A stretch of DNA of 64,000 nucleotides from Bacteroidales bacterium. GTDB lineage: Bacteria; Bacteroidota; Bacteroidia; Bacteroidales; P3. Both the position numbers and the translations under genes were made by a program. Below, in pieces: positions 24,692 through 45,986 of the stretch (within the stretch, counting starts at the first letter, position 1; each line of letters starts with the position of its first letter). The stretch covers positions 186,001 through 250,000 of the forward strand of contig JAFURZ010000007.1 in NCBI GenBank assembly GCA_017480785.1. Direction: 5' to 3'. Below the pieces are notes generated by a model that was not told the DNA's origin, searched no databases, and was given only the letters and a program-made list of their open reading frames with translations.

Positions 24692-24843
24692 AACGGCAAA
24701 TTACTCGAATTACTCGAACGCTTGCGCAGGTTAGGAATTGTCAGCGAATTACTCGAATTGTCGAGACAATTAGTTGCGTCAATTCGAGTAATTCGCTCCA
24801 AATTGACCTGCGTAGCTTCGAATAATTCGAGTAATTCGCCGTT
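24692..24843. repeat. 152-bp palindromic element, family AACGGCGAATT (copy 1)
   Basis: The ends AACGGC and GCCGTT are inverted. Inside, the arms carry AATTACTCGAATT words and a central pair around CGAATTACTCGAATTG / CAATTCGAGTAATTCG. A secondary motif GCGCAGGTT / ACCTGCG flanks the centre. It lies between convergent genes. The same architecture recurs at 38631-38781 and 45847-45986. Confidence 0.9.
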
Positions 24844-24855
24844 TACTACAGCCGT

Positions 24856-25560
24856 TCACTTGACAACTATCTGTACCGAGTCGGAGACCGAGGCACGGAT
24901 GTCGCCGCCGTACTGCTCGGGCGTAACGAAGAGGGTGCGCAGCGGTGTGTCGAGGGCGTGGAGTTCATGCATGGCAGGGTTGCCCCGCAGGTCCACCTCC
25001 TCGATTTGCGTGCCTCGGATATAGAGCGTCGTCAGGCGCTGGCAGGGGGTGATGTCGATGGCCGTCAAGGGCGAGAAGATGCAGAGCAGCATCTCCACGT
25101 CGGGCATCGTCGCCAGGTCGAGGGTGTCGAGGTGGGTGTGGCTCAGCTGCACCCGCTTCAGCCGGCTGCGCTGTCCCACATCCAGCCGCCGCAACGGCAC
25201 ATTGAGGCAGTAGAGTCGTTCCAGCCGAGGCAAACCGCCGAGGTCCAGCTCGGCGATAGGGTTGTCGCTACAGGTGAGCTCCTCCAGCTGGGGGAACAGC
25301 TCGATGCCCTGCAGGCTGTGGATACCTTTACCGTAGCACTCCAGCGTGGTCAGCGCACAGCCCTTTTCGGTAGGCCTCACCTTCCGTCCTCCCACCTTCG
25401 CGGCATAGCCGTTCTCCGTCAGCCAGTTGCGGAACGCCTTGTCGGGCACTCGCGCCGTCTGGCGGCAGTCGCAGACCGCCCCGTCGCCGACGGGCCGCAC
25501 GGCAGTGCAGCCCGTCAGCAGCAGGAGGGTCAGTGCATACAGAAACGGTCTATTTTTCAC
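24856..25560 (-). CDS. leucine-rich-repeat lipoprotein
   Basis: A 234-residue protein with a lipobox ending LLTGC (Cys18). The body holds irregular leucine-rich repeats of about 21-23 residues (LEELTCSDNPIAELDLGGLPRLERLYCLNVPLRRLDVG...), typical of protein-protein interaction surfaces. It overlaps the end of the BlaR1-like gene by 11 bp and is the third gene of the blaI-blaR1 operon, so it may be controlled by that repressor. No enzymatic motif is present. Confidence 0.8.
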   Translation of the reverse strand: MKNRPFLYALTLLLLTGCTAVRPVGDGAVCDCRQTARVPDKAFRNWLTENGYAAKVGGRKVRPTEKGCALTTLECYGKGIHSLQGIELFPQLEELTCSDNPIAELDLGGLPRLERLYCLNVPLRRLDVGQRSRLKRVQLSHTHLDTLDLATMPDVEMLLCIFSPLTAIDITPCQRLTTLYIRGTQIEEVDLRGNPAMHELHALDTPLRTLFVTPEQYGGDIRASVSDSVQIVVK

Positions 25561-26758
25561 CGAGCTTGAAGATAATGGGGAGGGTGTAGTTCACCCGCAC
25601 GGGTTTGCCGTCGACGATACCAGGCTTCCACTTGGGCATGGCGTTGACCACGCGTAGAGCCTCCTCGTCGCAGCCACCGCCGATGCCGCGCATCACCTGG
25701 GCGTTGGTGACGCTGCCGTCGGCCTCAATGATAAACCGCACAAACACACGGCCCTGCACACCGTCGGCTTTGGCCTGCTCGGGGTAGCGGATGTTCTCAG
25801 CCAGATACTTGTAGAGTGCTTCAATACCGCCAGGGTATTGGGGGTCCACTTCGACAACGTCGAGGACAGCCTCTTCATTGTCGGGCAGCACAGATTCGCA
25901 CATAGGCTCGTCGGTTTCCTTGACTGTTTCCTGCGTAGTAGGCTTGCAGCCGACCATCAGCAGCAGTGCCGCCACAGGCAGCACGGCCAACAGTTTCCAC
26001 GCGCCGAAGCGCGTCTTTTGTTTGTTCATCATAACGATACGTTTTTTGATGTTAATACTTTGGAAATTATTGGTGATATGGCCATATCCTGTTCCAGTGG
26101 CCTGCCTGTAGAGCAGACCCAGATACCCCTCGCGGCCGTGGACGGAGAGCACCGCCTCGTCGGCCAGGTACTCGTGCACACGGCGCAACTCGCGCAGCAT
26201 CAGCCAAGCGAAGGGGTTGAACCACGCCACGCAGCACATCAGGCGCATCAGCAGCACGTCGAGGGTGTGCCGCTGGCGGACATGCACCTGCTCGTGGGCG
26301 AGGATGCATTGCAGCTCTTCCTCGGTCAGTCCGCGCGTACCTATAATAATATGGTTGAAGAAAGAGTGCGGCGAGGTGTTGTCGTCAAGCAACATGAGGC
26401 GTGGCTGACGGCGCAGACGCGCGACCTGCACGGCCAGCTGTCCGAGCAGCACGGCCAGCGCCAAGGCCACCCCTGCCAGGTAGAGCACCGCGGGAAGCAC
26501 CGTCGGGCGCTTTGGCGCAGCCGTTGGCGGGAGGGGCGCCACAGGGTCGACCGCGACAGCACCAACTTCCACCGCCGGTGCCGTCACAGGCAGTACCACT
26601 TCGGGCAGTTGCACCAGCGGATAGACAAGGCTGAAAAACAGCGCAATAATCAAGTACACGCGCGAAAGCTGCAACCAGCGGTCACGGCGGAAGGCCAGGC
26701 AATAGAAGCCGTAGAACAGCGCCGTGGCCAGGGTCGAGAAAAGCATCCAGTGTATCAT
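25550..26758 (-). CDS. BlaR1/M56-type membrane metallopeptidase with C-terminal TonB domain
   Basis: A 402-residue protein. The N-terminal M56 domain has four membrane segments and the zinc motif HEQVH (His155, Glu156, His159), with a downstream acidic ligand region EYLADEAVL. A further membrane segment lies near residue 250. Instead of a beta-lactam sensor, the C-terminus is a TonB-like domain (about 310-402: YPGGIEALYKYLAENIRYP...NYTLPIIFKL). Such BlaR1-TonB fusions are common in Bacteroidetes and are paired with BlaI repressors; the signal they sense is not known. The gene overlaps blaI by 4 bp. Confidence 0.9.
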   Translation of the reverse strand: MIHWMLFSTLATALFYGFYCLAFRRDRWLQLSRVYLIIALFFSLVYPLVQLPEVVLPVTAPAVEVGAVAVDPVAPLPPTAAPKRPTVLPAVLYLAGVALALAVLLGQLAVQVARLRRQPRLMLLDDNTSPHSFFNHIIIGTRGLTEEELQCILAHEQVHVRQRHTLDVLLMRLMCCVAWFNPFAWLMLRELRRVHEYLADEAVLSVHGREGYLGLLYRQATGTGYGHITNNFQSINIKKRIVMMNKQKTRFGAWKLLAVLPVAALLLMVGCKPTTQETVKETDEPMCESVLPDNEEAVLDVVEVDPQYPGGIEALYKYLAENIRYPEQAKADGVQGRVFVRFIIEADGSVTNAQVMRGIGGGCDEEALRVVNAMPKWKPGIVDGKPVRVNYTLPIIFKLGEK

Positions 26759-27120
26759 CGCTCCAGTTCTTTGGTGATGGCTTCGAGGTCTTCGAGCGAG
26801 ACCTCATTCTTGTCGACAAGGAAACTGACCAGCGCCCGTGGCGACGAGCCAAACCAGCGGTGGGCAATGCCACCCAGCATGCGCTTCATATACTCTTCGC
26901 GGCTGACGAGGGGATAGTAACGGTTCGAGCGGTTGAAGGTCTCGTGCCCCACGAAGCCCTTCTGCTCCAGGATACGCACTACGGTGAGCACGGTGTTGTA
27001 GGCCACACCGCCTCCAACAGCCTCAACAATCTCGCCGGCAAAGCCCCTCTCAATCTTCCAGATGGCCTGCATCACCTGCTCCTCGGCCTTGGTCAGTTCT
27101 TTTATCTCTTTTGTCTCCAC
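26755..27120 (-). CDS. BlaI/MecI/CopY family repressor
   Basis: A 121-residue winged-helix DNA-binding protein (LTKAEEQVMQAIWKIERGFAGEIVEAVGGGVAYNTVLTVVRILEQKGFVGHETFNRSNRYYPLVS) with a C-terminal dimerisation region. In this family, proteolysis triggered by the BlaR1-like partner relieves repression. It is the first gene of the three-gene operon with the BlaR1-TonB protein and the LRR lipoprotein. Expected target is its own promoter, but no clear palindromic operator is visible in the 10 bp to the next gene upstream. Confidence 0.93.
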   Translation of the reverse strand: METKEIKELTKAEEQVMQAIWKIERGFAGEIVEAVGGGVAYNTVLTVVRILEQKGFVGHETFNRSNRYYPLVSREEYMKRMLGGIAHRWFGSSPRALVSFLVDKNEVSLEDLEAITKELER

Positions 27121-27130
27121 TTTTATTTGT

Positions 27131-27760
27131 TTATTTGATTAACAGCAATTCTACAGCCAGCCTGCACCCAACAGACACCTTATCGTCAGGAATATTTCTA
27201 TAATCAGGACTTTGACTTCCATGATCATCCACTAGATTATACTTCATAAAAGGGGTAAGATTAATCACACACTTATTACCAATCCTTTTTGAAAAAGCCA
27301 CCCCAATCATAAGAGAAATCCCCATTTCCCTGTTATTCAGCAACCCTGATTCAGTAAAAGGCACTCCGTCTTGTGATTGGTGGTTGATTTTATAATCCAA
27401 TATCTGATTAAAAACAGCACCAGCAAGCACACCTCCTGATATATCCGAAGACCATGAAATAAAATTGACAGTGGCCAATATTGGGAAGTGGATGGATTTT
27501 AAATCATACGTTAGATCGCCAAAGTTAGTTTGAGCCTGTAGTAACTTGGTAGAATACCCAACACCCATACTTACTTTCACGTTCCGCACCTTATCCGAAA
27601 CCAACATTGAGAATCCATAGTTAAAGTCATTGGTCATATTGCGTCCTATAATGTAATAATAATAATCCGTTACAAATTCTGCGGATATGCAACCATTGTT
27701 CTGACCAAATACATCCAGTGCACCAAAGAGCAGCAGGAGGGGGAAAAAACTTTTCTTCAT
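27131..27760 (-). CDS. outer-membrane beta-barrel protein in AT-rich island
   Basis: A 209-residue protein with signal peptide MKKSFFPLLLLFGALDVFG, followed by a beta-rich body typical of small porin-like proteins (GFSMLVSD, SMGVGYSTKL, GGVLAGAVFN, ISLMIGVAFSKRIG). It ends RLAVELLLIK, not in an aromatic residue. Base composition is far lower in GC than neighbours and codon use is AT-rich, indicating recent acquisition. It is adjacent to a broken GH16 gene in the same island. Confidence 0.7.
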   Translation of the reverse strand: MKKSFFPLLLLFGALDVFGQNNGCISAEFVTDYYYYIIGRNMTNDFNYGFSMLVSDKVRNVKVSMGVGYSTKLLQAQTNFGDLTYDLKSIHFPILATVNFISWSSDISGGVLAGAVFNQILDYKINHQSQDGVPFTESGLLNNREMGISLMIGVAFSKRIGNKCVINLTPFMKYNLVDDHGSQSPDYRNIPDDKVSVGCRLAVELLLIK

Positions 27761-27785
27761 TTTTATTGTATAATAATTCGGTGCC

Positions 27786-28286
27786 TTATAACGCTTCCAT
27801 CTTGACTGTTGAACAAATATAGTATATATATACCTTTGGATATGTTCTTAAATTAGGCAACCCATCTGACAATATTTCATTATCAGGCTTCCATGAAATA
27901 GCTCTTCTTTGAACAGTTTCCTTTTTAGCAATTATTTTGAGTATACCATCTGAAACCTCAACGTTATCAAGAGTATTATACTCCTGAGTCTTACCACCAT
28001 TCCCATATAAGGCTCCCTGTGCCCACTGCTGTAACTCCCATCTAGAAAAATCAAAGGTATTACCATCAAAGTTATCTTCAAACACAAGTACCCACGGATC
28101 ATTATTACATTGATTAAATGTAGTATTAGGAATTACCGCTTTCCGATCACATAGGGTTTGTGCATAACAGATTGACGGATACATAAACACAAACATTCCT
28201 ATTATCCCCCCAGATAAAATTATTACCCGAGAAAAAAATAGGGCCGACTCCTTAACTACACTAATGATTATTCTTCTTTTTTTCAT
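27786..28286 (-). pseudogene. truncated glycoside hydrolase family 16 protein
   Basis: About 166 residues. A membrane/signal segment (about residues 17-43) is followed by the start of a GH16 domain: DPWVLVFEDNFDGNTFDFSRWELQQWAQGALYGNGGKTQEYNTLDNVEVSDGILKIIAKKE. Homology appears to stop after ILSDGLPNLRTY, where the frame runs into 18 unrelated residues and a stop. The catalytic E-x-D-x-E motif, which should follow about 60 residues later, is absent. The gene is therefore a remnant and cannot be active as a hydrolase. It is AT-rich and probably horizontally acquired. Confidence 0.75.
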
Positions 28287-28411
28287 AATCAACATGCATC
28301 ATTTAATTAAATTTATAGTTAAGTAACGAGATATCAAGTTCTATATTGTGCAAAGAATGAAAAATTATTTTATTCCAATTTAGGAATACTGTTTCTCAAC
28401 GAATTAAATGC

Positions 28412-28461
28412 TTGTTCTTCGGCTGTTCTTCGGTTTTTACCGAAGAACAGCCGAAGAACAA
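28412..28461. repeat. perfect 22-bp-arm palindrome of TTCTTCGG words
   Basis: Arms 28412-28433 and 28440-28461 match at all 22 positions around a 6-nt loop (TTTTTA). Each arm contains the 11-nt word TGTTCTTCGGC twice. It is 31 bp beyond the stop of the thioredoxin-fold lipoprotein gene and may terminate it, although no T-run follows. Confidence 0.9.
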
Positions 28462-28492
28462 CCAAAGAAATAGCGATAAAAAGGGGGCTGAA

Positions 28493-29233
28493 TTATCGGC
28501 ATTCCCCGTCGGGGGTGCAGACGCGGGGGGCGTAGGAGAGGGTGTCAACTTTGGCGTAGTCCAGTTCTGTCACTGGGACGGAGATGTCGCGGATGTCGGT
28601 GGGTTCGAGCTTGGCGGTGCCGTCGCCGTAGATGACGTATGTGAGCTTCATGCGGCCCTTGGGGTCGAGCATCGCGGTGGTGGGGGTGCCGTTGGGGCCG
28701 GTGATGAGCTGCGGCTGCGGAGCGAGTCCGTTGGTGATATTGTCCAGACGGTCGTCGGCTTCATCCCATCCCAACTCCTCGAAGTCCTCACCATAATGAA
28801 AGATAAGGTTCCACACCACCGTCCACATATTCTTCACCATCCAGGGGCGGTACTGCGGCAGGGTGTCGTTGATCCAGTAGCGGGGCAAATCGATGTGATA
28901 GCGGCGGAACACCTCGTCCATATACTGTGCCGAGCTGTAGTCGGTCTCCACAAAGTACCAGCGCACCAAGCTGCTGTCGCACTCGGCCATCTTCCTTGGA
29001 TAGACGTCACGCATGGCCTGCTCGCAGGGACCGCAGCACGAACTGGTGAGCACCACCACCTTGTAGTGCGTTGTGTCGGCGGCCACCATCTGCCGCAGCT
29101 GTTCCACAGTTATGGGTGTAAGGTTCTCCATCGCAAGCACCTTGCGGTAGTTCTTCACCGTAGGTTTCTGCATCATGCATCCCGACAAAAGCATACAGGC
29201 CAGGGTTGCGAGAATGAATGTATGTACTTTCAT
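28493..29233 (-). CDS. thioredoxin-fold lipoprotein
   Basis: A 246-residue protein with a lipobox ending LLSGC (Cys19). Residues about 57-75 read YKVVVLTSSCCGPCEQAMRD: a thioredoxin-like strand followed by CCGPC, a CxxC-type redox site at the helix start. The rest includes a WINDTLPQYRPWM region and a beta-rich end (KLTYVIYGDGTAKL). I infer a periplasm-facing, membrane-anchored thioredoxin-like protein, perhaps involved in thiol-disulfide exchange, but the divergent C-terminus prevents a subfamily call. It is a single-gene unit preceded by 70 bp of intergenic DNA. Confidence 0.7.
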   Translation of the reverse strand: MKVHTFILATLACMLLSGCMMQKPTVKNYRKVLAMENLTPITVEQLRQMVAADTTHYKVVVLTSSCCGPCEQAMRDVYPRKMAECDSSLVRWYFVETDYSSAQYMDEVFRRYHIDLPRYWINDTLPQYRPWMVKNMWTVVWNLIFHYGEDFEELGWDEADDRLDNITNGLAPQPQLITGPNGTPTTAMLDPKGRMKLTYVIYGDGTAKLEPTDIRDISVPVTELDYAKVDTLSYAPRVCTPDGECR

Positions 29234-29304
29234 ATATAGTAGTCGCTTGAAGAGGCAAAAACTTACACCCTGACTGAAAAAAAGTTTTCATCCGGGGGTG
29301 GTGG

Positions 29305-31098
29305 CTATCGCAATACTATGGTTTTGCGGGCCGGACGGTGGCCGACTTTGACCAGATAGACTCCGCTGGGCAACGCTTCGTTGCGTAGGCTGCGGCCCAT
29401 GGTGTCGAACACCTGCACGGTCTCGCCTTCGGCACCCTCGACCACGATGTGGTCACGAAGGGGATAGACCTTGATGTCGTCGGCGGGAATGTCGCCGATG
29501 GACTCGCAGTTCTCAACCATATTGTCAGCATACTGGCTCCAATAGGTGTCGTTGGTCCAGGCGGCCAGGTAGTCGCAGGGGACGTAGATACGGCCGATGC
29601 TGCCAATCTGGTCTAGCGGACCGGCACCCGTGACGGCGGGCGGTTCTCCAACGGTGAAATAGATATGCTCGAGGTTGGCGCCGCTGAACACAGCAGTGCC
29701 CATGGTGTCGACGGGGCCGTAGAAGATAACATACCGCAGGTTGTTGTTGCAGGCACCGAAAGCACAGTCGCCCACCCTCCTCAGCGGCATCGGCATGTTG
29801 AGTTCCGTGATGTGGGTGCTGCTCATCTGTCCCATGGCCCAGAAAGCATAGTCTCCAATCTCCTCAACATCATTGCCCCATGCGATGGAGCTGAGCCGGA
29901 TGCAGGAGTTGAAGGCCTCCTTGGGGATGACACGCAGCGAGTCGGGGATATCAATAGAAGTCAGCGCATAGCAGTGTTCAAACGCGCCTTGCCCCATGGT
30001 GAGCAACGTCTGTGGCATTGTGACGCTGGCCAGCCGGTCGTTCTCGGAGAAGGCTTTTCTGCCTATCGACCGCAAGTGGGCCGGCAGTGTAATGCTGGTA
30101 ATCTGACAGCCGTTGAAGCAGTTGTCGGTGATGTCGGTCACCCCCTCCGGGATGTCGACATTCCGCACCCAAGTGTTGTTCTCGAAACCACCGAGGACTT
30201 TTAGGTTCGGGTTCAGCGTCACCGTAGCGCCCGACTTGTGGCACGACACCAGCGTGTCGTAGCCGCTGCTGTAGACCATCAGGCCGTCCATCACATAATG
30301 GGTGTTGCCTTCGGCAATACTGAGGTGGTCCATCTGCGGGCAGTAGGAGAACGGACAGAAGCCGATGTGCGTCACAGTGGAGGGAATGACAATATTGTCA
30401 ACCGTTGCACAACAGTTGAAGGCAAAGTCGCCGATGCTCTCGAGCCCTTCGGACAGCGCCACAGAGGTGATATGGCCACAGAGGCCGAAGGCCATCGCAC
30501 CGAGATGCCTCACGTATTGCGGCACCGTGACGGCTCCGGTCACCCCGCTGGGCACGATACAGAGCGTCAGGCTGTCCTTGCTGTAGAGCCAGCCGTCGAT
30601 GGAACGGTAGCGGGGGTTGGCCTCGTCGACGGTGATACTCGACAGGTTCCTTGCCCAGAAAGAGCATTCGTCGTACTCCTCGAAGCAGGCCGGGAGGTGC
30701 AACGCCTCGACACTGGAGTAGAGGAAGGCGTGGTCGGCAATGGTACGCAACGAGTCGGGCAGCTGCAGCGTGGTCAGGGAGCAATCGTAGAAGCAATGCG
30801 ACCCGATGCTGCGGATGGTTGGCGGCAACGTCAGGCTGACAAGGCTGTGGCAACTCTCGAAAGCCGACTCACCCAGTGCCGTGACGGTGTAGATGGTGCC
30901 CTCATGCTCCACCGTCTGCGGTATGGCAATGGAACCGCTGTAGGGGTTGTCCTGCTGATAGTAATGCGACAACACTTCGACGTTCTGTTCCGAGGTGATG
31001 CCATACGTAATGCCATCCACTTCAAAGTATTGTGCCGATACGGAGAAGGGAAGGCAAAGCACTGCGAGGAGTGCCAGGAGGGATTTTGTGCGTGTCAT
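29305..31098 (-). CDS. BspA-type leucine-rich-repeat protein with T9SS sorting domain
   Basis: A 597-residue secreted protein. It has signal peptide MTRTKSLLALLAVLCLPFSVSA, then about 14 LRR_5 (BspA/TpLRR) repeats of about 23 residues with the recurring pattern I-x-x-x-A-F-x-x-C/N-x-x-L-x-x-I-x-x-P (about residues 60-500). A C-terminal type A sorting domain for type IX secretion follows (about 525-597, ending RPARKTIVLR). Such proteins are surface adhesins or matrix-binding proteins. It is monocistronic and lies between a lipoprotein gene and the rplI terminator. Confidence 0.92.
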   Translation of the reverse strand: MTRTKSLLALLAVLCLPFSVSAQYFEVDGITYGITSEQNVEVLSHYYQQDNPYSGSIAIPQTVEHEGTIYTVTALGESAFESCHSLVSLTLPPTIRSIGSHCFYDCSLTTLQLPDSLRTIADHAFLYSSVEALHLPACFEEYDECSFWARNLSSITVDEANPRYRSIDGWLYSKDSLTLCIVPSGVTGAVTVPQYVRHLGAMAFGLCGHITSVALSEGLESIGDFAFNCCATVDNIVIPSTVTHIGFCPFSYCPQMDHLSIAEGNTHYVMDGLMVYSSGYDTLVSCHKSGATVTLNPNLKVLGGFENNTWVRNVDIPEGVTDITDNCFNGCQITSITLPAHLRSIGRKAFSENDRLASVTMPQTLLTMGQGAFEHCYALTSIDIPDSLRVIPKEAFNSCIRLSSIAWGNDVEEIGDYAFWAMGQMSSTHITELNMPMPLRRVGDCAFGACNNNLRYVIFYGPVDTMGTAVFSGANLEHIYFTVGEPPAVTGAGPLDQIGSIGRIYVPCDYLAAWTNDTYWSQYADNMVENCESIGDIPADDIKVYPLRDHIVVEGAEGETVQVFDTMGRSLRNEALPSGVYLVKVGHRPARKTIVLR

Positions 31099-31170
31099 GT
31101 TGTTTGGGTTTTATGGGTTTTTATGCCTATATAATACCCACTTTTCGGGCCAAATCTGACACAGGGTATA

Positions 31171-31205
31171 AAAAAAACATCCCCGAATGACGGGGATGCT
31201 TTTTC
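31171..31205. terminator. bidirectional terminator after rplI
   Basis: CATCCCCG / CGGGGATG stem with loop AATGA, flanked by AAAAAAAA on the left and TTTTT on the right, so it can act in both directions. It lies about 55 bp past the rplI stop. Confidence 0.85.
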
Positions 31206-31259
31206 GAATATTAACCTGCAATGCCATACAGCGGGGTTTTCTCCGCCGCGGGGATGCGG

Positions 31260-31703
31260 TTACTCGGCGACGACCTCAAGGTTGAGTTCGGCCTTGATTT
31301 CACGGTAGACGTTGACCTTGGCGGTGTAGTTGCCGACGGTCTTGATGGGCTCGACGACAATGTCCTTGCGATCCACATCGTAGTTGTGCTGCTCCTTGAG
31401 AGCCTCGGCAACCATGATGTTGTTGACGCCACCGAAGAGCTGTCCGTTCTCACCCACTTTGACGATGAGCTTCACGGTCTTGCCGTTGAGGGCGGCCTGC
31501 TGGGTCTCGGCGTTCTTGCGGAGGGCTTCCTCCTTGTGGGCGCGCTGGCGCAGGTTCTCAGCATGGATTTTCTTGTTCACCGGGGTGGCAATGATAGCCA
31601 TTCCTTTGGGAAGGAGGTAGTTGTTGGCATAGCCATTCTTCACTTTGACGATTTCGTCTTTGTAGCCGAGGTTGGCCACATCCTGTTTCAGTATGATTTC
31701 CAT
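31260..31703 (-). CDS. rplI: 50S ribosomal protein L9
   Basis: A 147-residue ribosomal protein with the L9 N-terminal domain (MEIILKQDVANLGYKDEIVKVKNGYANNYLLPKGMA), a long helix and a C-terminal domain. It binds 23S rRNA. It is the last gene of rpsF-rpsR-rplI. An unusually good Shine-Dalgarno-like AGGAGGAAAG precedes it, which is rare in this window. Confidence 0.98.
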   Translation of the reverse strand: MEIILKQDVANLGYKDEIVKVKNGYANNYLLPKGMAIIATPVNKKIHAENLRQRAHKEEALRKNAETQQAALNGKTVKLIVKVGENGQLFGGVNNIMVAEALKEQHNYDVDRKDIVVEPIKTVGNYTAKVNVYREIKAELNLEVVAE

Positions 31704-31722
31704 CTATCTTTCCTCCTAGTTA

Positions 31723-31989
31723 TTATTTGAGACAATCGGCGACGTAGGGCATCAGGGCGATGTGACGGGCACGCTTGATGGCCTGCGAGACCTTCTTCTG
31801 GTACTTGTTCGAGGTGCCGGTGATGCGGCGGGGCAGAATCTTGCCCTGCTCGTTGACGAACTTCAGCAGGAAGTCGGCATCCTTGTAGTCAATATATTTA
31901 ATACCGAGCTTTTTGAAGCGGCAGTATTTCTTACGCTGGGTCTCCACTGCGATGGGAGTCAGATATTTGATTTCGCTTTCGTTAGCCAT
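31723..31989 (-). CDS. rpsR: 30S ribosomal protein S18
   Basis: An 88-residue ribosomal protein with the typical [60 protein letters not shown]. It binds S6 and 16S rRNA in the small subunit. It lies between rpsF and rplI, as in most bacteria. Confidence 0.98.
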
Positions 31990-31991
31990 AG

Positions 31992-32034
31992 TTTTTTCTA
32001 CTTTACTACTTTTCTACTTTTACTACTTTACTAC
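31992..32034 (-). repeat. TACTACTTT word repeat between rpsF and rpsR
   Basis: The spacer is built almost entirely of variants of TACTACTTT / TTCTACTTT in tandem, within the ribosomal operon and without an inverted copy. It would be transcribed as an A/G/U-rich single-stranded leader for rpsR. Confidence 0.75.
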
Positions 32035-32039
32035 ATGCC

Positions 32040-32411
32040 TTATGCCTCGGCGGGAGTTTCGACGGGAGCGGCTGCGGCCTCGGCCTTCTTGGCGCGCTTC
32101 TTCTCGTTGTAGGCCACGGCATGCTTGTCAAGACTGACGGTGAGGAAGCGGAGCAGACGCTCGTCACGCTTGTAGGCGACCTCGAGGTCATTGATGACGC
32201 TACCCTCGGCCTTGAACTCTATCAGATAATAGAAGCCGGTGGTCTTCTTGCGGATGGGATAGGCCAGCTTGCGCATGCCCCAATTGTTCTCGTACACAAT
32301 CTCTGCACCCTTCGAGGTGAGCAGGTCGGTGTACTTCTTTACCGTTTCCTTCATCTGTTCTTCAGACAAAACGGGAGTTGCAATGAAAACGGTTTCGTAC
32401 TGTTTTACCAT
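32040..32411 (-). CDS. rpsF: 30S ribosomal protein S6
   Basis: A 123-residue ribosomal protein (MVKQYETVFIATPVLSEEQMKETVKKYTDLL...). It has the ferredoxin-like S6 fold and an Ala/Lys/Glu-rich C-terminal tail. The start at 32411 is chosen because the open frame further upstream runs through the terminator of tRNA-Thr. S6 pairs with S18 on the ribosome platform. No promoter of its own is obvious, so read-through from the tRNA cluster is possible. Confidence 0.97.
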   Translation of the reverse strand: MVKQYETVFIATPVLSEEQMKETVKKYTDLLTSKGAEIVYENNWGMRKLAYPIRKKTTGFYYLIEFKAEGSVINDLEVAYKRDERLLRFLTVSLDKHAVAYNEKKRAKKAEAAAAPVETPAEA

Positions 32412-32446
32412 TGGTTTGTTTGTTGTTTTATTATTTGTTAATGTTA

Positions 32447-32484: not shown

Positions 32485-32492
32485 TTTTTTTG

Positions 32493-32565
<73 letters not shown>

Positions 32566-32595
32566 GGCTGGGGTTCACAAGTGTGACTGCTTTTG

Positions 32596-32669: not shown

Positions 32670-32674
32670 CGATT

Positions 32675-38630: not shown

Positions 38631-38781
38631 AACGGCGAATTAGACGAATTGTTCGAAGCTACGCAGGTCAATTTAAGGCTAATTACTCGAATTGACGCAA
38701 CAAACAGCCCCGACAATTCGAGTAATTAGCCTACAATTCCCAACCTGCGCAAGCTTGGAGAAATTCAAGTAATTCGCCGTT
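38631..38781. repeat. 151-bp palindromic element, family AACGGCGAATT (copy 2)
   Basis: Ends AACGGCGAATTA and AATTCGCCGTT. The inner arms GGCTAATTACTCGAATTG and CAATTCGAGTAATTAGCC are perfect inverted copies around a 19-nt centre. Secondary pair ACGCAGGT / ACCTGCGC. It lies 11 bp beyond the stop of the helicase-nuclease gene. Confidence 0.92.
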
Positions 38782-38791
38782 AGAAAAGCCG

Positions 38792-41700
38792 TCACATCAC
38801 CGGCCGTACGCGGATGTCGGGCTTCAGGTAGATGAGCCAGCCGCTGACGTTGGGATATCCCATCACCGTCATGGCGCGGCAGTAGCGCCTCACCTGCCGG
38901 TCGTGCTCCTCGCCCACATCCTGACCCGTCTTGAAGTCGACCACCCATGTCTCGTCAGGCGTCAGCACCACGCGGTCTGGACGGCAGATACCCTCGTCGT
39001 CGCACAGGTCGCACTCCGTTTTCACCTCGTATCCCTCACGGAAGAAACGCTCTGTGTCGGCATGTGTCACCAGGCTGCGGGCCATCTCGCCCAGCCGTTG
39101 CCGCTGCCGTTCGTCGAGTTGCTCTTCCGCGGCCGTCTTGCCCACCGCAGCCTCCACGTCGCCGGCATGCCGCACCTGCGCCATCATGTCGTGCACCAGG
39201 TTGCCCAGCCGCACGCTCTCTTCCTGCATCGGCGACAGCGCGTGCTCCGCCGTCGACGCCACCTGCACCTTGGTGGTCCACTCGGCAAACGACAGGCGGT
39301 GCAAGGCCACTTCGGTGCGGTCCGACGCCGTCGCCTTCCTTTCGACATGCCGGAAGCCGGCATCGCCGAGCGACGGATGCTCGCTGTCCATAAACTCCTT
39401 GACCAGACGCGGATAGCTCAGCTCGTCCTTGCTCGTCTTGGGGGGCGTGGGGCAGACGAAGAACAGCTGCTCCTGCGGACGTGTCAGGGCCACATACAGC
39501 ACATTCAGCTGGTCCACCTCGTCCAGGCGCCGCTCCTCGTCGCGCACACTGTCGAACTGCGACGACCCTTCACGGCTGAGCTCCACGAAAGCCACCGGCA
39601 GCTTTCCTCCGACGTCGGTCTTCCCGTCGAGCTTCACCCACAACTTATACCCGTGGCTTGTCTGGGGCATGAAGGGGCAGATAACCACCGGCGCCTCGAG
39701 TCCTTTGGCCTTGTGGATGGTAAGCAGGCGCACCGCATCGACCCCCTCGGGACTGGCGGCCGACAGCTGGCGGTGCACGGTGTCGCCCAGGTCGGCGCTG
39801 GCGTTCTCGTCGAACCATTCCAAGAACTCGGCCACCCCCTGGTGGTGGCGCGAGGCGAAGGCCGCCACGCGGCCCAGCAGCGACCCGACGTAGGCCGTGT
39901 CGATGCCGTCGAGGTGCAACTGGCGCACCAGCTCCTCACAGCAGTCGTAGACATCCAGCGCCGACAGGTAGTCGGGCCTGAAGTCGAAGCCGCGGTGTTC
40001 GTCGCGCAGCAGTTGCGCCACGTCGACAACACCTCCCTCCAAGAAGGCATCGTGGTGGCAACTGGCCACCAGTCCCAGGTTGAAGAGGCGTTGCAGCAGG
40101 TCGGCGGCAGCCACTCTGTCGCCCGGGTCGTGGAGCAGTCGAAGCGCCGACACCACGGCCATCACGGCATGGCTGCGCACCAGGAAGAACGACTCGCTCG
40201 AGCTCACCTCGATGCGCAACTCTTCGCCATGGCTTTGCAGGTAGGTGCTCACCTGGTCGAGGTCCTTGTTGCTGCGCCCCAGCACCATGATGTCGCGCTG
40301 ACGGTAGCCTTGCTGCGTGACGAGACGCACAATCGTCCGGCGTATCTCCTCGCTGACAGCGTCGGCATCGGCCCCGTCGATGAAGGTCACCCCCACGTGT
40401 CCCTCCGGCACCCCGCGGGACGGCAGGCGCTGCCACAGCTCGGCATGCCCGTCGGCGTCGGGCGTGCCTTCGTATATCTGCTTTGCCAACGTGTTGCTGG
40501 CAAAGGGCTCGCGCTTCAGCAGCCAGGTGAAAAAGGCGTTGTTGAAATCCACTATGCTCGATGCGGTGCGGTAGTTGGTGTCGAGCGGCACAATGGAGCA
40601 GTTGCCCTCGGCGGCGAGCGTCTGCCCATGGAACGACGGCATGCCCTCCACGCGCGGCAGCGCCACAAACTGGCGCACGTCGCCCTGCCGGAAGCGGTAG
40701 ATGGCCTGCTTGCCGTCGCCCACCACCAGCGACTCATAGCGCTGGCTCACCCCGTTCTCCAGCAGCGGCACCAGGTTGTGCCACTGCAGCACCGACGTGT
40801 CCTGGAACTCATCAATCAGGAAGTGGTGGTAGCGGTTGCCCAGACGCTCGTAGATGAACGGTGCAGGCTCGTCGCAGACTATACTATTTATCAACTGGTT
40901 GAATTCCGAGAGGTGCACCAGCTCGTTCTCCTTGCAGTAGAGGTCGAGTTGTGCCTTCAACTGTCCCAGCAGGGCCAGCGAGTAGAGGTTCTTCTGCAAC
41001 ACCTGGCGCGTGTTGTAGTCGCGCAGGGCACTTCCCTCGTCGGGCGTCCGGCCGTCGGCCACACCCAGCATCGTGCGGGCCTGCTCGTAGAGCGGGTAGA
41101 GCTCGTCCATCAGGTCGCCGATGACATCCTGTTTATCCACAGCACATTTGGCACTGTGCAACTTACCGCTCTCGAAGGCGTTGGCCACCGATGCCGTCAG
41201 GGGGCGCAGATTGCCCGCCGCCAAGCCGCGGAAGAAACCGTAGTAGCCGTTGCGCCCGCCGGCGCAGTCGGCCTCCTCCACCCCCTCGCGCTGCAGCAGG
41301 GCCATCAGCGCCTGCCCGCAGCCGGTCGCCTCCTGCTCGAACCGTCGGCTGGCGGCTGTCAGCATTCCATGGAGGGCGACGAAATCGCCTATCTCCATCC
41401 CCTTGAGCAGCGACAGGTAGCCGTCGGTGCCCTCGCGGAACAGCTGCCGCGCCAGACGCGTGAGCTCGCCTTCGATGTTGTAGCCCTTCGAGTCCTCCAT
41501 GCGGCTCTCGGCAAAGGCGCGCACCACCCGCGTGAGTTCCTCGTTGCCGGGGGTGCCCACCAGCGACATCAGCTGCGCCACAGCCTGCTGTATCAGCTCG
41601 TCCTGCTCTATCATCACCTCGAAGTTGACCGGACGGTCCAGGTCGTGGGCGAAGGTACGCACAATGCGGTGCATGAAGCTGTCGATGGTGCACACCGACA

Positions 41701-42103
41701 AGTCGCTGTACTGGTGCAGAATGGACGAGTAGACCACCTCGGCCATCCAGCGCAGCTCGCCCTCGTCGAGCGGGTACCCTTCATAGGGGGGCAAGGCGTT
41801 CAGCGCCTCCAGCAGCGGGCGCCCCATGCGCGAACGCTCCGCATCGACGCCATACTCCGCCATCTGCTCCAGGTATTCCATCACACGGCTCTTCATCTCG
41901 CCGGCCGCCTTGTTGGTGAAGGTGATGGCCAGAATGCCGGCGAACTGGCGCCGCAGCACCCGCTCGGTCGCCGCACGGTCGGCACGCACGGCGGCACTCG
42001 GCACCGCCATGGCCAGCTTCAGATACTCCTTCACCAGCGTGAAAGTCTTGCCGCTACCGGCGGCGGCACGGCATATAACGAACGGATTATGTGGTTTCTG
42101 CAT
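38792..42103 (-). CDS. UvrD-type helicase with RecB-like nuclease domain (AddA-like)
   Basis: A 1103-residue SF1A helicase-nuclease. Walker A AAGSGKT is at residues 14-20, and Walker B with motif II lies in LIDEFQDTSVLQW. Motif VI-like LNVLYVALTRPQEQLFF is present. The C-terminus has the PD-(D/E)xK nuclease pattern GICRPDRVVLTPDETWVVDFKTGQ...YCRAM. This is the AddA/RecB architecture for double-strand break processing. An AddB partner is not in this window. An alternative start at 42112 adds three residues; the -7 box at 42131-42138 leaves a more plausible leader for 42103. Confidence 0.93.
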   Translation of the reverse strand: MQKPHNPFVICRAAAGSGKTFTLVKEYLKLAMAVPSAAVRADRAATERVLRRQFAGILAITFTNKAAGEMKSRVMEYLEQMAEYGVDAERSRMGRPLLEALNALPPYEGYPLDEGELRWMAEVVYSSILHQYSDLSVCTIDSFMHRIVRTFAHDLDRPVNFEVMIEQDELIQQAVAQLMSLVGTPGNEELTRVVRAFAESRMEDSKGYNIEGELTRLARQLFREGTDGYLSLLKGMEIGDFVALHGMLTAASRRFEQEATGCGQALMALLQREGVEEADCAGGRNGYYGFFRGLAAGNLRPLTASVANAFESGKLHSAKCAVDKQDVIGDLMDELYPLYEQARTMLGVADGRTPDEGSALRDYNTRQVLQKNLYSLALLGQLKAQLDLYCKENELVHLSEFNQLINSIVCDEPAPFIYERLGNRYHHFLIDEFQDTSVLQWHNLVPLLENGVSQRYESLVVGDGKQAIYRFRQGDVRQFVALPRVEGMPSFHGQTLAAEGNCSIVPLDTNYRTASSIVDFNNAFFTWLLKREPFASNTLAKQIYEGTPDADGHAELWQRLPSRGVPEGHVGVTFIDGADADAVSEEIRRTIVRLVTQQGYRQRDIMVLGRSNKDLDQVSTYLQSHGEELRIEVSSSESFFLVRSHAVMAVVSALRLLHDPGDRVAAADLLQRLFNLGLVASCHHDAFLEGGVVDVAQLLRDEHRGFDFRPDYLSALDVYDCCEELVRQLHLDGIDTAYVGSLLGRVAAFASRHHQGVAEFLEWFDENASADLGDTVHRQLSAASPEGVDAVRLLTIHKAKGLEAPVVICPFMPQTSHGYKLWVKLDGKTDVGGKLPVAFVELSREGSSQFDSVRDEERRLDEVDQLNVLYVALTRPQEQLFFVCPTPPKTSKDELSYPRLVKEFMDSEHPSLGDAGFRHVERKATASDRTEVALHRLSFAEWTTKVQVASTAEHALSPMQEESVRLGNLVHDMMAQVRHAGDVEAAVGKTAAEEQLDERQRQRLGEMARSLVTHADTERFFREGYEVKTECDLCDDEGICRPDRVVLTPDETWVVDFKTGQDVGEEHDRQVRRYCRAMTVMGYPNVSGWLIYLKPDIRVRPVM

Positions 42104-42130
42104 AACGTCCATGGAGTTGCTTTTCCGAGG

Positions 42131-42138
42131 CAAAGGTA
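42131..42138 (-). promoter_or_regulatory. -7 box of helicase-nuclease gene
   Basis: TACCTTTG on the minus strand, 27 bp upstream of the chosen start, matches TAnnTTTG. Confidence 0.65.
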
Positions 42139-42202
42139 CGAAGAAAAACACACTCCAGCAAATCCAGTTATCAACACCCATCAGCCCCGAAAACAAGCAC
42201 CA

Positions 42203-42320
42203 CATCCTCAGGGTTTTCGATTACAGTTCAACTTGAGTTCTACGGTAGTATTACGCTTTTTCAAGTTGAACTGTAGTTGAAATACTGTAATACTGCCGTA
42301 GAAATGGCAGAGGATATTGG
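42203..42320. repeat. interlocked palindromic element, family CATCCTCAGGGTTTTCGA (copy 1)
   Basis: Inverted pair C: 42222-42236 with 42261-42275 (TACAGTTCAACTTGA). Inverted pair B: 42239-42255 with 42286-42302 (around CTACGGTAGTATTACG). The order is C-B-C'-B', so the two stems cannot nest. A homologous copy in the opposite orientation lies at 50765-50865. The outer ends ATCCTC / GAGGAT are also inverted. Confidence 0.88.
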
Positions 42321-42429
42321 GGGCGGGGAGGGCTCTCTCCGAGGCTTATTCCGCAGCGATATTTGCTGTTTTTGATGCGTCATCCCTTATCATATATTAA
42401 AATATTTCCCGGCAATCCGATTTTTTTTG

Positions 42430-42437
42430 TATCTTTG
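42430..42437 (+). promoter_or_regulatory. -7 box of mutA transcription unit
   Basis: TATCTTTG, 37 bp upstream of the mutA start codon, preceded by a T-run. No TTTG -33 box at the expected place. Confidence 0.7.
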
Positions 42438-42474
42438 CCCTTTACAAGAGAGAATAAACAAACGATACAATATA

Positions 42475-44334
42475 ATGGAAGACAACAAGTTATTCAGCGA
42501 ATTCCCGCCCGTTTCGACCGAAAAATGGGAGGAAGTCATCAACAAAGACCTCAAAGGGGCCGACTACGACAAGAAATTGATGTGGCACACGATTGAAGGA
42601 TTCAACGTGAAGCCCTACTACCGTGCCGAGAACCTTGAGGGGCTGGACTACCTCGAGAGCAATCCGGGCGAGGTGCCCTTCACGCGCGGTCACCAGGCAG
42701 GCGGCAACGTGTGGGAGGTGCGTCAGGACATCCACGTGCCCGACCTGGCCGAGGCCAACCGCATCGCCCTCGGCGCGGTGGAGCGCGGCGCCACCTCGCT
42801 GGGCCTTTGCGCCAAGAAGGTGCAGTCGGTCGACGACCTGGCGGTGCTGCTGAAAGGCATCTATATCAACGCCGTGAGCATCAACTTCATGTGCTCCGAC
42901 GACTACCTCGGGCTGCTGAAACTCTATGTGGAATACGCCCAAAAGAACGGCTACGACCCGAAGGAGCTGTGCGGCTCGACCGACTTCGACATGTTCCGCT
43001 ACGCCCTGAAGCACGGACGCTTCCATCGCGGCGAAGAGGGCGACCTGGCCATGGCCAAGGAGCTGGTGGAGTATGCCCACGAGGCGCTGCCCAAGTTCCG
43101 CGTGCTGACGGTGGGCAGCAACGTGCTGCACAACGCCGGCGCCAACATCGTGCAGGAACTCGGTTTCGGCCTGGCCGCCGCCAACGAGCTGGTGGCCCGC
43201 CTGACGGACATGGGCTGCAAGATGGAGCACGTGGGCCGCTCGATAGTGCTGAGCGTGGGCGTGGGCAGCACCTACTTCATGGAGATTGCCAAGATACGCG
43301 CGGCACGCCTCCTGTGGAGCAAGATAGTGGAGCAGTACAAGCCCGAGTGCGACTGCCCCTACAAGCTCTTCATCAACGCCACCACGAGCCGCTGGAACCA
43401 GTCGGTCTACGACCCCTATGTGAACATGCTGCGCTCCACCACCGAGGCCATGTCCTCGGCCGTGGCCGGCGCCGACTCCATCAGCGTGCTGCCGTTCGAC
43501 AACGCCTACAAAGAGGCCGACGACTTCGGCTACCGCATCGCCCGCAACCAGCAGCTGCTGCTGAAGGAGGAGAGCTATCTGGACAAGATAGTGGACCCCG
43601 CCGCGGGCAGCTACTACATCGAGAACCTCACCGACGAGATTGCCAAGGGCGCCTGGGAGCACTTCCTGAAAGTGGAGCAGGCCGGCGGCTACTGCCAGGC
43701 CCTCCGCGCCGGACTGGTGCAGGACGAGGTGATGGAGACCGCCCGCAAGCGCGACCTCGACATCGCCACCCGCAAGACCACCATCCTCGGCACCAACCAG
43801 TACCCCAACCTGCTGGAGAAGATGGGCGAGAAGATAGAGAAGAACGGCGGCTGTTGCTGCGGCGGCGAGCAGGGCGACGAGGTGAAGGTGCTGCCGGAAT
43901 ACCGCGGCGCCGAGGCCTTCGAGCAGCTGCGCCTCGAGACCGAGCGGGCCGCCCGCCGGCCGAAGGTGTTCCTGCTGACCTACGGCAACCTGACCATGCG
44001 CAAGGCCCGCTCGGGCTTCGCCACCAACTTCTTCGGCGTGGCAGGCTACGAAATCATCGACAACCCGGGATTCGCCACCCCCGAAGAGGGTGCCAGGGCA
44101 GCCCTGGAGAGCGGCGCCGACGTGGTGGTGCTCTGCTCGAGCGACGACGAATATGCCGAGCTCACCGAACCCGTATGCAAGGCCCTCAAGGGCAGGGTGA
44201 AGAGCCTCGTCCTGGCCGGATTCCCCAAGGAGATGGTGGAAACCTACAAGGGCTACGGCATCGACGAGTTCATCCACGTGAAGACCAACGCCCTCGACTG
44301 TCTCACCAAGTTCCAGAAACTACTCCTGCAGTAG
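42475..44334 (+). CDS. mutA: methylmalonyl-CoA mutase small (beta) subunit
   Basis: A 619-residue protein with the mutase TIM barrel (FSEFPPVSTEKWEEVINKDLKGADYDKKLMWHTIEG...YYRAENL) and a C-terminal cobalamin-binding-like Rossmann domain (about 490-619). The cobalamin-ligating D-x-H-x-x-G is missing: the corresponding stretch reads KARSGFATNFFG. This is expected for the non-catalytic small subunit. It partners with the large subunit in succinyl-CoA/methylmalonyl-CoA conversion for propionate production. The large-subunit gene, normally directly downstream in Bacteroidetes, is not here; an LptF/G gene follows after 3 bp. Confidence 0.9.
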   Translation: MEDNKLFSEFPPVSTEKWEEVINKDLKGADYDKKLMWHTIEGFNVKPYYRAENLEGLDYLESNPGEVPFTRGHQAGGNVWEVRQDIHVPDLAEANRIALGAVERGATSLGLCAKKVQSVDDLAVLLKGIYINAVSINFMCSDDYLGLLKLYVEYAQKNGYDPKELCGSTDFDMFRYALKHGRFHRGEEGDLAMAKELVEYAHEALPKFRVLTVGSNVLHNAGANIVQELGFGLAAANELVARLTDMGCKMEHVGRSIVLSVGVGSTYFMEIAKIRAARLLWSKIVEQYKPECDCPYKLFINATTSRWNQSVYDPYVNMLRSTTEAMSSAVAGADSISVLPFDNAYKEADDFGYRIARNQQLLLKEESYLDKIVDPAAGSYYIENLTDEIAKGAWEHFLKVEQAGGYCQALRAGLVQDEVMETARKRDLDIATRKTTILGTNQYPNLLEKMGEKIEKNGGCCCGGEQGDEVKVLPEYRGAEAFEQLRLETERAARRPKVFLLTYGNLTMRKARSGFATNFFGVAGYEIIDNPGFATPEEGARAALESGADVVVLCSSDDEYAELTEPVCKALKGRVKSLVLAGFPKEMVETYKGYGIDEFIHVKTNALDCLTKFQKLLLQ

Positions 44335-44337
44335 ACA

Positions 44338-45420
44338 GTGAAGAGAATAGACAGTTACATCCTAGCCAAGTACATCAAGACCTTCTTGCTGGCCTTGGCT
44401 TTGATTATTGTCATCGTCATCACCTTCGACGTCAGCGAGAAGCTCGACAAGTTCATCTCCCACCACGCCACCTTCGGACAGGTGGTGACGGACTACTACT
44501 TCAACTTCATCCCGGGCTTCGTAAACCTCTACAGCCCGCTGTTCATCTTCATCTCGGTGCTCTTCTTCACCTCGAAGATGGCGGGCAACACGGAGATAAT
44601 AGCCATCCTGGGCTCGGGCATCAGCTACCGGCGCATGCTGCGGCCCTACCTCTACGGGTCGCTGATAGTGGCCGTGGTGGTGCTGCTGCTGGGCAACTTC
44701 GTCATTCCCCTTTCCAACCGGCACCTCATCGACTTCGAGGAGCAATATGTCAAGGCCAAAGCCACCAGCTACTACAGCAACCTGCATTTCCAGGCCGAGC
44801 CCGGCGTGCAGGTGTATGCCGAGAGCTACGACGTGAAGAAGCAGCGGGGCTACAAGTTCTGCCGCGAGGTGATAGACGACAAAGGGCAGATGAGACGCCG
44901 CGAGACGGCCGACATCATCCAGTACGACTCCGCCAGCTGCCTGTGGCGCAGCACGAGCTACACCCTCCGCACCATCGACGCACAAGGCAACGAGACCCTG
45001 AAGAGCAAGGCAACCGCCGATATAGACTACGGCATCGCGCCGGAGGACTTCGACCTGCTGTCAAAACGCATCGAGACCATGACGACTCCCGACCTGCTGG
45101 CACACATCGAACGCGAGACCATCCGCGGCACCGGCACCGTCAAAGAGGCCCAGATAGAGCTGTACCAACGCCTCCTCAATCCCTTGGCCATCATCGTGAT
45201 GACCTTCATCGGTGTGGCCATCGCCTCGCGCAAGACGCGCGGCGGCATCGGCATGCACCTGGCCATCGGCATCACGCTGGCCTTCGGCTTCATCGTATTC
45301 ATGAAGATAACCACCGTCTTCGCCACGGGCGGCAACCTGTCGCCCTTCATGGCCGTGCTGCTCCCACAGCTGGTCTTCGGCGTGGCGGCGGCATACCTGA
45401 TACATATTGCACCCAAATGA
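44338..45420 (+). CDS. LptF/LptG family permease (YjgP/YjgQ)
   Basis: A 360-residue inner-membrane protein: six membrane segments, three at each end, with a beta-jellyroll-like periplasmic domain between (about 130-260). It begins with GTG (VKRIDSYILAKYIKTFLLALALIIVIVITFDVSEKLDKF). The family forms the permease of the LptBFG exporter that extracts lipopolysaccharide from the inner membrane. Only one of the usual pair is present here. It overlaps the next gene by 4 bp (ATGA). Confidence 0.9.
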   Translation: MKRIDSYILAKYIKTFLLALALIIVIVITFDVSEKLDKFISHHATFGQVVTDYYFNFIPGFVNLYSPLFIFISVLFFTSKMAGNTEIIAILGSGISYRRMLRPYLYGSLIVAVVVLLLGNFVIPLSNRHLIDFEEQYVKAKATSYYSNLHFQAEPGVQVYAESYDVKKQRGYKFCREVIDDKGQMRRRETADIIQYDSASCLWRSTSYTLRTIDAQGNETLKSKATADIDYGIAPEDFDLLSKRIETMTTPDLLAHIERETIRGTGTVKEAQIELYQRLLNPLAIIVMTFIGVAIASRKTRGGIGMHLAIGITLAFGFIVFMKITTVFATGGNLSPFMAVLLPQLVFGVAAAYLIHIAPK

Positions 45421-45842
45421 CCATCAAAGAGACAGAACAACAGATTATCGACGAGTTCAGCAACTTCGACGAGTGGCTGGACCGCTACGCCTACCTCATC
45501 GACCTCGGGCGCGAATGCCCGCAGATTGACGAGAAGGACAAGACCGAGCAGAACCTCATCAAGGGCTGCCAGAGCCGCGTGTGGCTCAGCTGCTCCTACG
45601 ACAACGGGCTGCTCCACTTCCGCGCCGACAGCGACGCCGTCATCACCCGCGGCATCGTCACCCTCCTCATCCGCGCACTCGACGGGCACTCCCCGCAGGA
45701 AATCCTGGACGCCGACCTGGCATTCATCGACGCCATAGGCCTCAAGGAGCACCTCTCCCCCACCCGCTCCAACGGCCTCACCGCCATGGTGAAACAGATG
45801 AAGATGTACGCCCTGGCATATAAGATGAAAAACAACCAATAA
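45417..45842 (+). CDS. sufE: SufE-family sulfur acceptor protein
   Basis: A 141-residue cytosolic protein. SufE accepts persulfide sulfur from the SufS desulfurase; the acceptor cysteine is in NLIKGCQSRVWLSC (Cys at about residue 50), the family signature. The start codon overlaps the LptF/G stop (ATGA). It is followed by a 140-bp palindrome and then by a SufT-like gene, so two Fe-S assembly genes are neighbours although separated by the repeat. Confidence 0.93.
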   Translation: MTIKETEQQIIDEFSNFDEWLDRYAYLIDLGRECPQIDEKDKTEQNLIKGCQSRVWLSCSYDNGLLHFRADSDAVITRGIVTLLIRALDGHSPQEILDADLAFIDAIGLKEHLSPTRSNGLTAMVKQMKMYALAYKMKNNQ

Positions 45843-45846
45843 TTAT

Positions 45847-45986
45847 AACGGCGAATTATACGAATTATGCGAATTGTTACAGGTTCTGAATTAGAGGCTA
45901 ATTACTCGAATTGTTGCGCTAGCATTCGAGTAATTAGCCTGCAATTGACCTGCGCAAGCTTAGAATAATTCGATTAATTCGCCGTT
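45847..45986. repeat. 140-bp palindromic element, family AACGGCGAATT (copy 3)
   Basis: Ends AACGGCGAATTA and TAATTCGCCGTT followed by A8. The inner arms GGCTAATTACTCGAAT and ATTCGAGTAATTAGCC pair. The right flank CCTGCGCAAGCTT matches copy 2. The element begins 4 bp after the sufE stop and ends 16 bp before the SufT-like gene. Confidence 0.92.

Follow-up and report, generated by a model that had tools for sequence, protein, structure and literature searches.

The three palindromic repeats of the window (the whole stretch of 64,000 nucleotides analysed) probably belong, at roughly 60%, to a mobile hairpin element as its non-autonomous copies without an ORF; in full form this element would hold a GxxExxY nuclease gene in its loop. 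This reading is based on common arms, an intact ORF, an association of nuclease genes with word arrays, a match between word type and nuclease clade, and patchily occupied sites. The full element would consist of a single gene, for a Cas4/RecB-type PD-(D/E)XK nuclease, placed between two inverted arms, each built from repeats of a 9-nt word (for the window family, C-K-AATTA-NN). The nuclease may bind these words and cut at or beside the folded or extruded arm, and cutting would drive the copying of elements with the right word, with or without an ORF, into new intergenic sites by repair. Spread would then take place in trans, in a homing- or REPIN-like manner, and it is the nuclease that we infer to be the mover of the palindromes. 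Neither the nuclease-bearing copy nor the general association of nucleases with word hairpins was visible to the sequence-only reading of the window. The scheme offers a testable role for GxxExxY proteins (PF13366), a family nearly absent from the literature searched, joins palindromic repeats, short word arrays and 23S IVS-type proteins, and suggests compact nucleases with a specificity perhaps readable from the DNA word round the gene.

Palindromes of the window

All three palindromes were located where the sequence-only reading had placed them (Table 1); all are intergenic, between protein genes, and none lies in 23S rRNA. The element ends of the family read AACGGCGAATT, the left end of copy 1 being AACGGCAAATT, and extra element ends like AACGGCGAAT adjoin 4 of 15 copies. 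The inner arm pair described as common to the copies is indeed present, but the arm of copy 1 reads GCGAATTACTCGAATTG and not GGCTAATT... as proposed. With up to 3 mismatches allowed, the inner word AATTACTCGAATTG matches the window 15 times, against a shuffle mean of 2.3, and 14 of these matches fall inside the three elements. Compared with 200 dinucleotide shuffles, folding gave z values of -13.1, -11.0 and -9.4 for copies 1, 2 and 3, copy 1 having been trimmed by 2 bases and copy 2 by 1 base to a 150-base limit. The proximity of each copy to a gene stop, put at about 20 bp or less, is confirmed: copy 1 lies 19 and 12 nt from the stops of both convergent genes, copy 2 at 10 nt and copy 3 at 4 nt. 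An Rfam scan of the window at gathering score returned tRNAs only, with no known RNA at the elements.

Table 1. Palindromic elements of the window and their parts (n/a, strand not applicable)
Feature	Position	Strand	Context
Copy 1, ORF-less palindromic element, 152 bp	24692..24843	+	flanked by convergent gene pair
Copy 1, outer left word array	24692..24718	+	
Copy 1, outer right word array	24817..24843	-	
Copy 1, inner arm pair	24744..24796 (24744-24760 / 24780-24796)	n/a	
Lone extra element end AACGGCGAAT	24671..24680	+	overlaps barrel gene stop codon
Copy 2, ORF-less palindromic element, 151 bp	38631..38781	+	helicase stop 10 nt away
Copy 2, inner arm pair	38678..38730 (38678-38694 / 38714-38730)	n/a	
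Copy 3, ORF-less palindromic element, 140 bp	45847..45986	+	sufE stop 4 nt before
Copy 3, inner arm pair	45896..45939	n/a	

Spread of the family and its association with nuclease genes

The genome-wide search suggested in the earlier reading found the family at about 25 places in the 2.25-Mb genome of this gut bacterium, a count made by similarity search; among 37 genomes sampled from the genus, 14 have the family. Filled and empty sites could be compared at sites 2 and 3, where nearly all readable relatives are free of the family (27/28 at site 2, 26/28 at site 3), although these sites are too diverged for exact joints to be read. Occupancy is patchy between species, and the proposal of a spreading hairpin family without a transposase of its own is borne out by the number of places and by these absences. 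Some observations count against the preferred reading: these relatives, too distant for exact joints, showed neither a transposition event nor a target-site duplication or excised intermediate, and in eight genomes the palindromes are present with the matching nuclease absent from the assembly. Carriage by phage was considered and set aside; a viral contig pattern scan gave two relatives.

One copy elsewhere in the genome contains an intact 136-aa GxxExxY (PF13366) gene between the same arms as the window palindromes. The absence of a transposase, as originally described, is thus true of the three window copies, but the family does have an ORF-bearing member. This ORF (L011), the sole PF13366 gene of the assembly, scores 138 bits against PF13366 (curated cut-off 22) and 145 bits against TIGR04256 (curated cut-off 35), and by these profile matches it belongs to the GxxExxY / PDDEXK_3 family of Cas4/RecB-like PD-(D/E)XK nucleases. 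The predicted catalytic residues E22, E32, D62, E72 and K74 are kept in 85/85 GxxExxY sequences, and Q86 and Y90 in 84/85; with an intact frame and conserved catalytic residues, the product is a predicted nuclease. A sequence search of solved structures gave one match, at E 1, and with dS saturated in 44/45 pairs, selection was expressed as pN/pS only. Three species have the nuclease element at one and the same holA site; vertical descent may thus explain some of its history, a point against the preferred reading.

In the genus, 70 of 87 GxxExxY loci lie between inverted arms, as against 0-1 of 22-29 control genes. These arms consist mostly of words of about 9 nt, and the best repeat lag is 9 in 50/69 loci. 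The preferred reading is weakened by loci without inverted flanks at p<=0.01, both in the genus (17/87) and among named relatives (19/77), and by word pairs in unexpected orientation, which are not rare at the named loci (19/77 upstream, 25/77 downstream). The gene-in-arms layout recurs in named relatives under the titles Spirochaetes, Acidobacteria, Calditrichota and Cloacimonadota; enzyme and hairpin pairs of similar kind occur in several bacterial phyla. One GxxExxY locus (L234) belongs to the cultured Carboxylicivirga mesophila. Word type tracks nuclease clade, by a Mantel test (r 0.74) and by a contrast of clades made on whole protein clusters; what the Mantel result demonstrates is joint inheritance, and this is possible without recognition. 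In one genome, two pairs of close nucleases carry different words, and the protein by itself therefore does not determine the word. Within the word of the window family, the NN positions vary without covariation between the arms, and the arms therefore have the look of repeats that a protein binds, not of an RNA stem. Six arm words had no match in the literature searched. At one locus cut by a contig end (L068), the match start was off by 107 bases in the flank, residue, clade, lag and PF05635 analyses.

Competing explanations

The position of the three window copies less than 20 nt from a stop codon, and their strong folding, would suit selected cis-acting RNA hairpins that act on host genes by terminating transcription or stabilising the 3' end. 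Yet almost no readable relative has the family at the orthologous sites, and arm positions vary without covariation; of the 23 consensus stem pairs none is changed on both sides, which says little, since nearly all are invariant. The terminator role first proposed lacks support: on either strand the hairpin is preceded by T-rich and followed by A-rich sequence, whereas an intrinsic terminator has a GC-rich stem and then a T run, and terminator scans made no call at the element ends and one, at chance level, inside copy 2. Nor does settling at 3' ends hold as a rule, 3/15 copies lying between two 5' ends in a rough tally of ORF calls that for copy 2 used a spurious ORF on a side where a TonB gene has its 5' end. 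An RNA function of this kind is very improbable. Movement of non-autonomous REPIN/RAYT or MITE elements by a Y1 or DDE transposase would account for small, extragenic, palindromic, multicopy elements, and is favoured also by the three Y1 transposase genes of the 92%-complete assembly and by half elements at five loci. However, no window-family arms occur within 1.5 kb of these three genes, only isolated 11-mers with two mismatches; other palindromes flank them, which speaks against REP membership and led to rejection of the Y1 transposase as mover. In the genome similarity search, moreover, no protein gene but that of the nuclease was seen between paired window-family arms. We consider a transposase-driven origin improbable.

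The palindromes might also spread otherwise, by template switching in replication, by repair or by an unrelated transposase, with the nuclease gene a selfish passenger of the loop, as are IVS ORFs in rRNA hairpins. Tandem arm duplications do occur, and all 25 of the 25 tested PF05635 ("23S IVS") genes of the same genus lie between inverted word arms, in comparable hairpins built of other short words, which implies that different proteins ride in one kind of hairpin. A random passenger, however, would not be expected to show a word type that tracks its clade, or a repeat period that differs by protein family: 9 for GxxExxY, and 7 and 14 for PF05635, the latter being peaks of a mean lag profile round which single loci scatter. 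We regard this explanation as rather unlikely. The preferred reading, of palindromes mobilised by the nuclease, can tentatively be widened, at somewhat short of even odds, to an undescribed and widespread class of minimal mobile elements. In these, one small protein, a Cas4-like nuclease or, for a sister class, a four-helix-bundle protein of PF05635, would read a private short word arrayed as inverted arms round its own gene and mobilise swarms of gene-less hairpins in trans. Enzyme and array would drift jointly to new words, and one genome could thus hold several word families blind to each other.

Relation to known systems

Homing endonucleases of the PD-(D/E)XK fold are nucleases inside an element that the nuclease may spread, and the nuclease element resembles them in fold and in placement; it differs in having no intron or intein and many intergenic targets. 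A second comparison is with short word repeats, in which TAACTGA heptamer repeats are grouped with the cyanobacterial STRR. The heptamers of Beggiatoaceae and cyanobacteria, also found in five Bacteroidetes, are likewise short intergenic word arrays, but in the relevant passages of PMC4679880 they are direct repeats with no partner protein described, whereas here inverted pairs surround specific genes. MITEs, including that of Porphyromonas gingivalis, which contains a minisatellite (PMC4596501), are similarly small inverted-repeat elements of Bacteroidales with an inner repeat; a parent transposase was not found here by similarity search, and the parent-like element carries a nuclease instead.

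REPIN/RAYT (PMC3116915) comes close in its extragenic inverted-repeat doublets, non-autonomous and dependent on a separate DNA-cutting enzyme, and in the co-diversification of enzyme and palindrome. The enzyme here is, however, of the PD-(D/E)XK type and not a Y1 transposase, the arms are arrays of 9-nt words, the gene lies inside the hairpin, and arm positions vary without covariation, unlike the REPIN hairpin, in which compensatory changes are common (PMC3116915). The 23S rRNA intervening sequences with the S23/IVS protein, called selfish and of unclear function and origin in PMC4990558, resemble the nuclease element in that a long stem carries a small gene in its loop. The window family differs from them in being intergenic, in its many copies and in its protein family, but a link exists in the PF05635 genes of the genus, which do sit between inverted word arms.

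Palindrome family and its nuclease-bearing member

The three palindromes of the window hold up as the sequence-only reading had described them, with fold z-scores of -13.1, -11.0 and -9.4 (200 dinucleotide shuffles), and an Rfam search of the window returned tRNAs only, with no match at any of the three. A genome-wide search, which that reading had proposed for the inner arm, was run with copy 2 as query and revealed a multicopy family. The own genome (2.25 Mb in 19 contigs, 92% complete) gave 51 matches over the two strands, merged by us into about 25 places, namely 14 ORF-less two-ended elements (117-157 bp; alignment A1), one ORF-bearing element and about 10 incomplete ones, partial or half. 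The inner left arm is missing from one of the 14. Family matches were found in 14 of 61 genomes, comprising 14/37 within the genus (own genome counted) and 0/24 outside it. One-armed half elements occur at L014, L017, L020, L023 and L024, the last three adjoining a common block that contains GTACCCAACTT words, while whole elements or single arms are duplicated in tandem at L040, L043, L056 and L061 (arms at the latter two).

The ORF-bearing member, L011, encodes a protein that matches PF13366 (E 2e-40) and TIGR04256 GxxExxY (E 1e-42), a Cas4/RecB-like PD-(D/E)XK nuclease family, and is the sole PF13366 match in the assembly. The inner right arm (AAT TCG AGT AAT TAG) supplies its last codons, N-S-S-N-stop; in the ORF-less copies the same sequence forms the inner arm. 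On sequence it is close to certain that the elements of the window, which lack an ORF, are related to a hairpin that bears a nuclease gene. The GxxExxY nuclease likely reads the arm words, and we infer that it is the putative mover of the elements.

Coordinates of the palindromic elements and associated features
Feature	Position	Remark
Copy 1	window 24692-24843	convergent genes
Copy 2	window 38631-38781	helicase
Copy 3	window 45847-45986	sufE
ORF-bearing family member	C8:95506-96040 (L011 1032-1566)	same two arms as ORF-less copies, around 136-aa ORF
Extra lone element end	window 24671-24680	one of the 4/15 cases
Second palindrome family, GTAGTATTACG	window 42195-42300, 50655-50746, 50764-50870, 61602-61710	
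Nested GC-rich palindromes	window 61280-61480	
Heptamer arrays after holA	L374, L378, L380, L386, L392	first codons, where signal peptide would be

GxxExxY nucleases between inverted arms

Of 99 genomes sampled in the genus, 71 hold PF13366. At 90 GxxExxY loci, mostly the top entries of a list that was longer and cut off, and with a few of the last 20 picked because their genomes hold palindromes, the 350 nt before each hit were compared with the 350 nt that follow, reverse-complemented, against 100 dinucleotide shuffles. Three loci were too short; 70 of the remaining 87 scored above all shuffles (67/85 in another run on cleanly translated loci), versus 1/22 for ParE, 0/28 for sufE and 0/29 for the helicase C-terminus (controls drawn from 30 loci each). 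The median flank score was 19.5, against 9.5 in mismatched locus pairs, a harsher null whose 95th percentile reaches 22 because arms are common to different loci, and which was exceeded by 29 of the 87. An internal period of 9 was the best in 50 of 69 loci with arms long enough.

Across 72 loci at p<=0.05, protein distance and arm 6-mer distance are correlated with a Mantel r of 0.74 (top of 2000 permutations, 0.13). Counted over whole protein clusters, CGAAT-type word pairs occur at 19/25 loci in the cluster of the L011 ORF versus 4/41 in the largest other cluster, and AATC-type pairs at 6/25 versus 24/41. Three pairs of close nucleases (distance <0.35) share one genome, and two of them carry ACGAAT versus ACGGAT words; the third, near-identical tandem nucleases, has a word score of 0, probably from a wrongly picked arm. 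Arm words can thus change fast, and the Mantel result alone shows inheritance as a unit, not recognition.

Named genomes scanned with alignment A2 gave 532 relatives, of which the best 80 were taken and 77 loci were usable. Nearest among these best 80 are MAGs of uncultured Bacteroidales, many of them from the gut of ruminants and some evidently the same contigs as the genus loci; other titles include Lentisphaerae, Cloacimonadota, Acidobacteria, Calditrichota, Chlorobiota, Spirochaetaceae/Treponema and Deltaproteobacteria. Inverted flanks reach p<=0.01 at 58 of the 77 (the two Lentisphaerae loci reach just 0.07 and 0.02), and an inverted CGAAT-type pair lies on both sides at 37, versus 0.0006 in shuffles, with word pairs of unexpected orientation in 19/77 upstream and 25/77 downstream flanks. 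Among 12 loci set apart as non-Bacteroidota (11 on the strength of their titles, the other titled just "bacterium") the pair lies on both sides in four and on one side or both in eight; it is absent from the two tested spirochaete loci, which have other words. A viral-contig scan yielded two relatives.

Arm anatomy and site occupancy

In 30 outer arms from 15 own-genome elements, the sequence reads AACGGCGAATTANN-CKAATTANN-CKAA, the commonest base occurring in 11-15 arms at variable positions 13, 14, 22 and 23, in 16-22 at partly variable positions 16, 21 and 25, and in 26-30 elsewhere. At variable positions arms agree no better within than between elements (0.42 vs 0.39, permutation p 0.22; 20 elements, five of them from other species). 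What is conserved is therefore the word rather than its pairing, and this points to a word recognised by a protein. Pairing is near-perfect in most inner arms. The elements are preceded by T-rich and followed by A-rich sequence (0.58 and 0.57 vs 0.21 and 0.22), and an extra lone end, oriented like the near end, lies within 60 nt of 4/15 copies (control 0.03 per copy).

Comparison of filled and empty sites, likewise proposed earlier, found sites 2 and 3 without the family in nearly all readable relatives. After the helicase (28/30 loci could be read by eye; of the other two, one runs into a contig end and one lacks synteny) it occurs in the own genome only, and G009 and G117 carry words of another family. 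After sufE (28/30 readable) it occurs in the own genome and G035, with quite different inner sequences; sites without it are not always empty. Hairpins built from other words stand there in G088 and in G086, which is the closest relative judged by sufE (97% identity) and by helicase (76%). Among 30 holA loci, the nuclease element occupies three (own genome, G008 and G022, the last with its nuclease split over two frames), short remnants three, and 24 have none of the family. Several relatives carry heptamer arrays such as TTTTCAATTTTCAATTTTCAATTT in a receptor-like gene after holA.

Nuclease identity to the own genome showed no clear relation to host sufE identity (Spearman 0.16, p 0.67), a weak comparison of 10 hosts with one identity from a partial alignment. 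Matching nucleases (58% identity or more) occur in 6/37 genomes, every one with palindromes, versus palindromes in 8 of the 31 others (Fisher p 0.0013); in these eight the nuclease may have been lost, or missed by draft assembly. Settling at gene 3' ends, read from the window copies, fails as a rule for the family: flanking ends are 3'/3' at five copies, mixed at seven and 5'/5' at three of 15 (scripted ORF calls of 6, 6 and 3, with window copy 2 then corrected).

Other palindromes and known systems

The second palindrome family of the window is built on the 11-nt word GTAGTATTACG, with 94 word-pair matches in the genome and 0 in the reversed control; ten loci read comprise nine short-looped hairpins and one mixed form (L368). 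The nested GC-rich palindromes look like the ones that flank the Y1 transposase genes (L402-L404) and are perhaps the genome's real REPIN/RAYT system.

PF05635, the 23S IVS protein, matches in 97/99 genomes, up to 18 per genome, and its genes lie between short-word inverted arms genus-wide (e.g., L142-L171). Of 30 loci five were too short, and all 25 tested lie within inverted arms (p<=0.01). Averaged over loci, the self-match profile of these arms peaks at 7 and 14, with single-locus best periods of 7 or 8 in ten, 14 in four and 9-13 in 11.

No description of GxxExxY elements was found in the literature searched, a body that left out preprints and most subscription journals. The window family fits neither REPIN/RAYT, as the three Y1 transposase loci of the 92%-complete assembly carry other palindromes, nor 23S IVS, as the window copies lie between protein genes. 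These two are the nearest known systems in working, and the PF05635 hairpins are a sister system of the GxxExxY elements.
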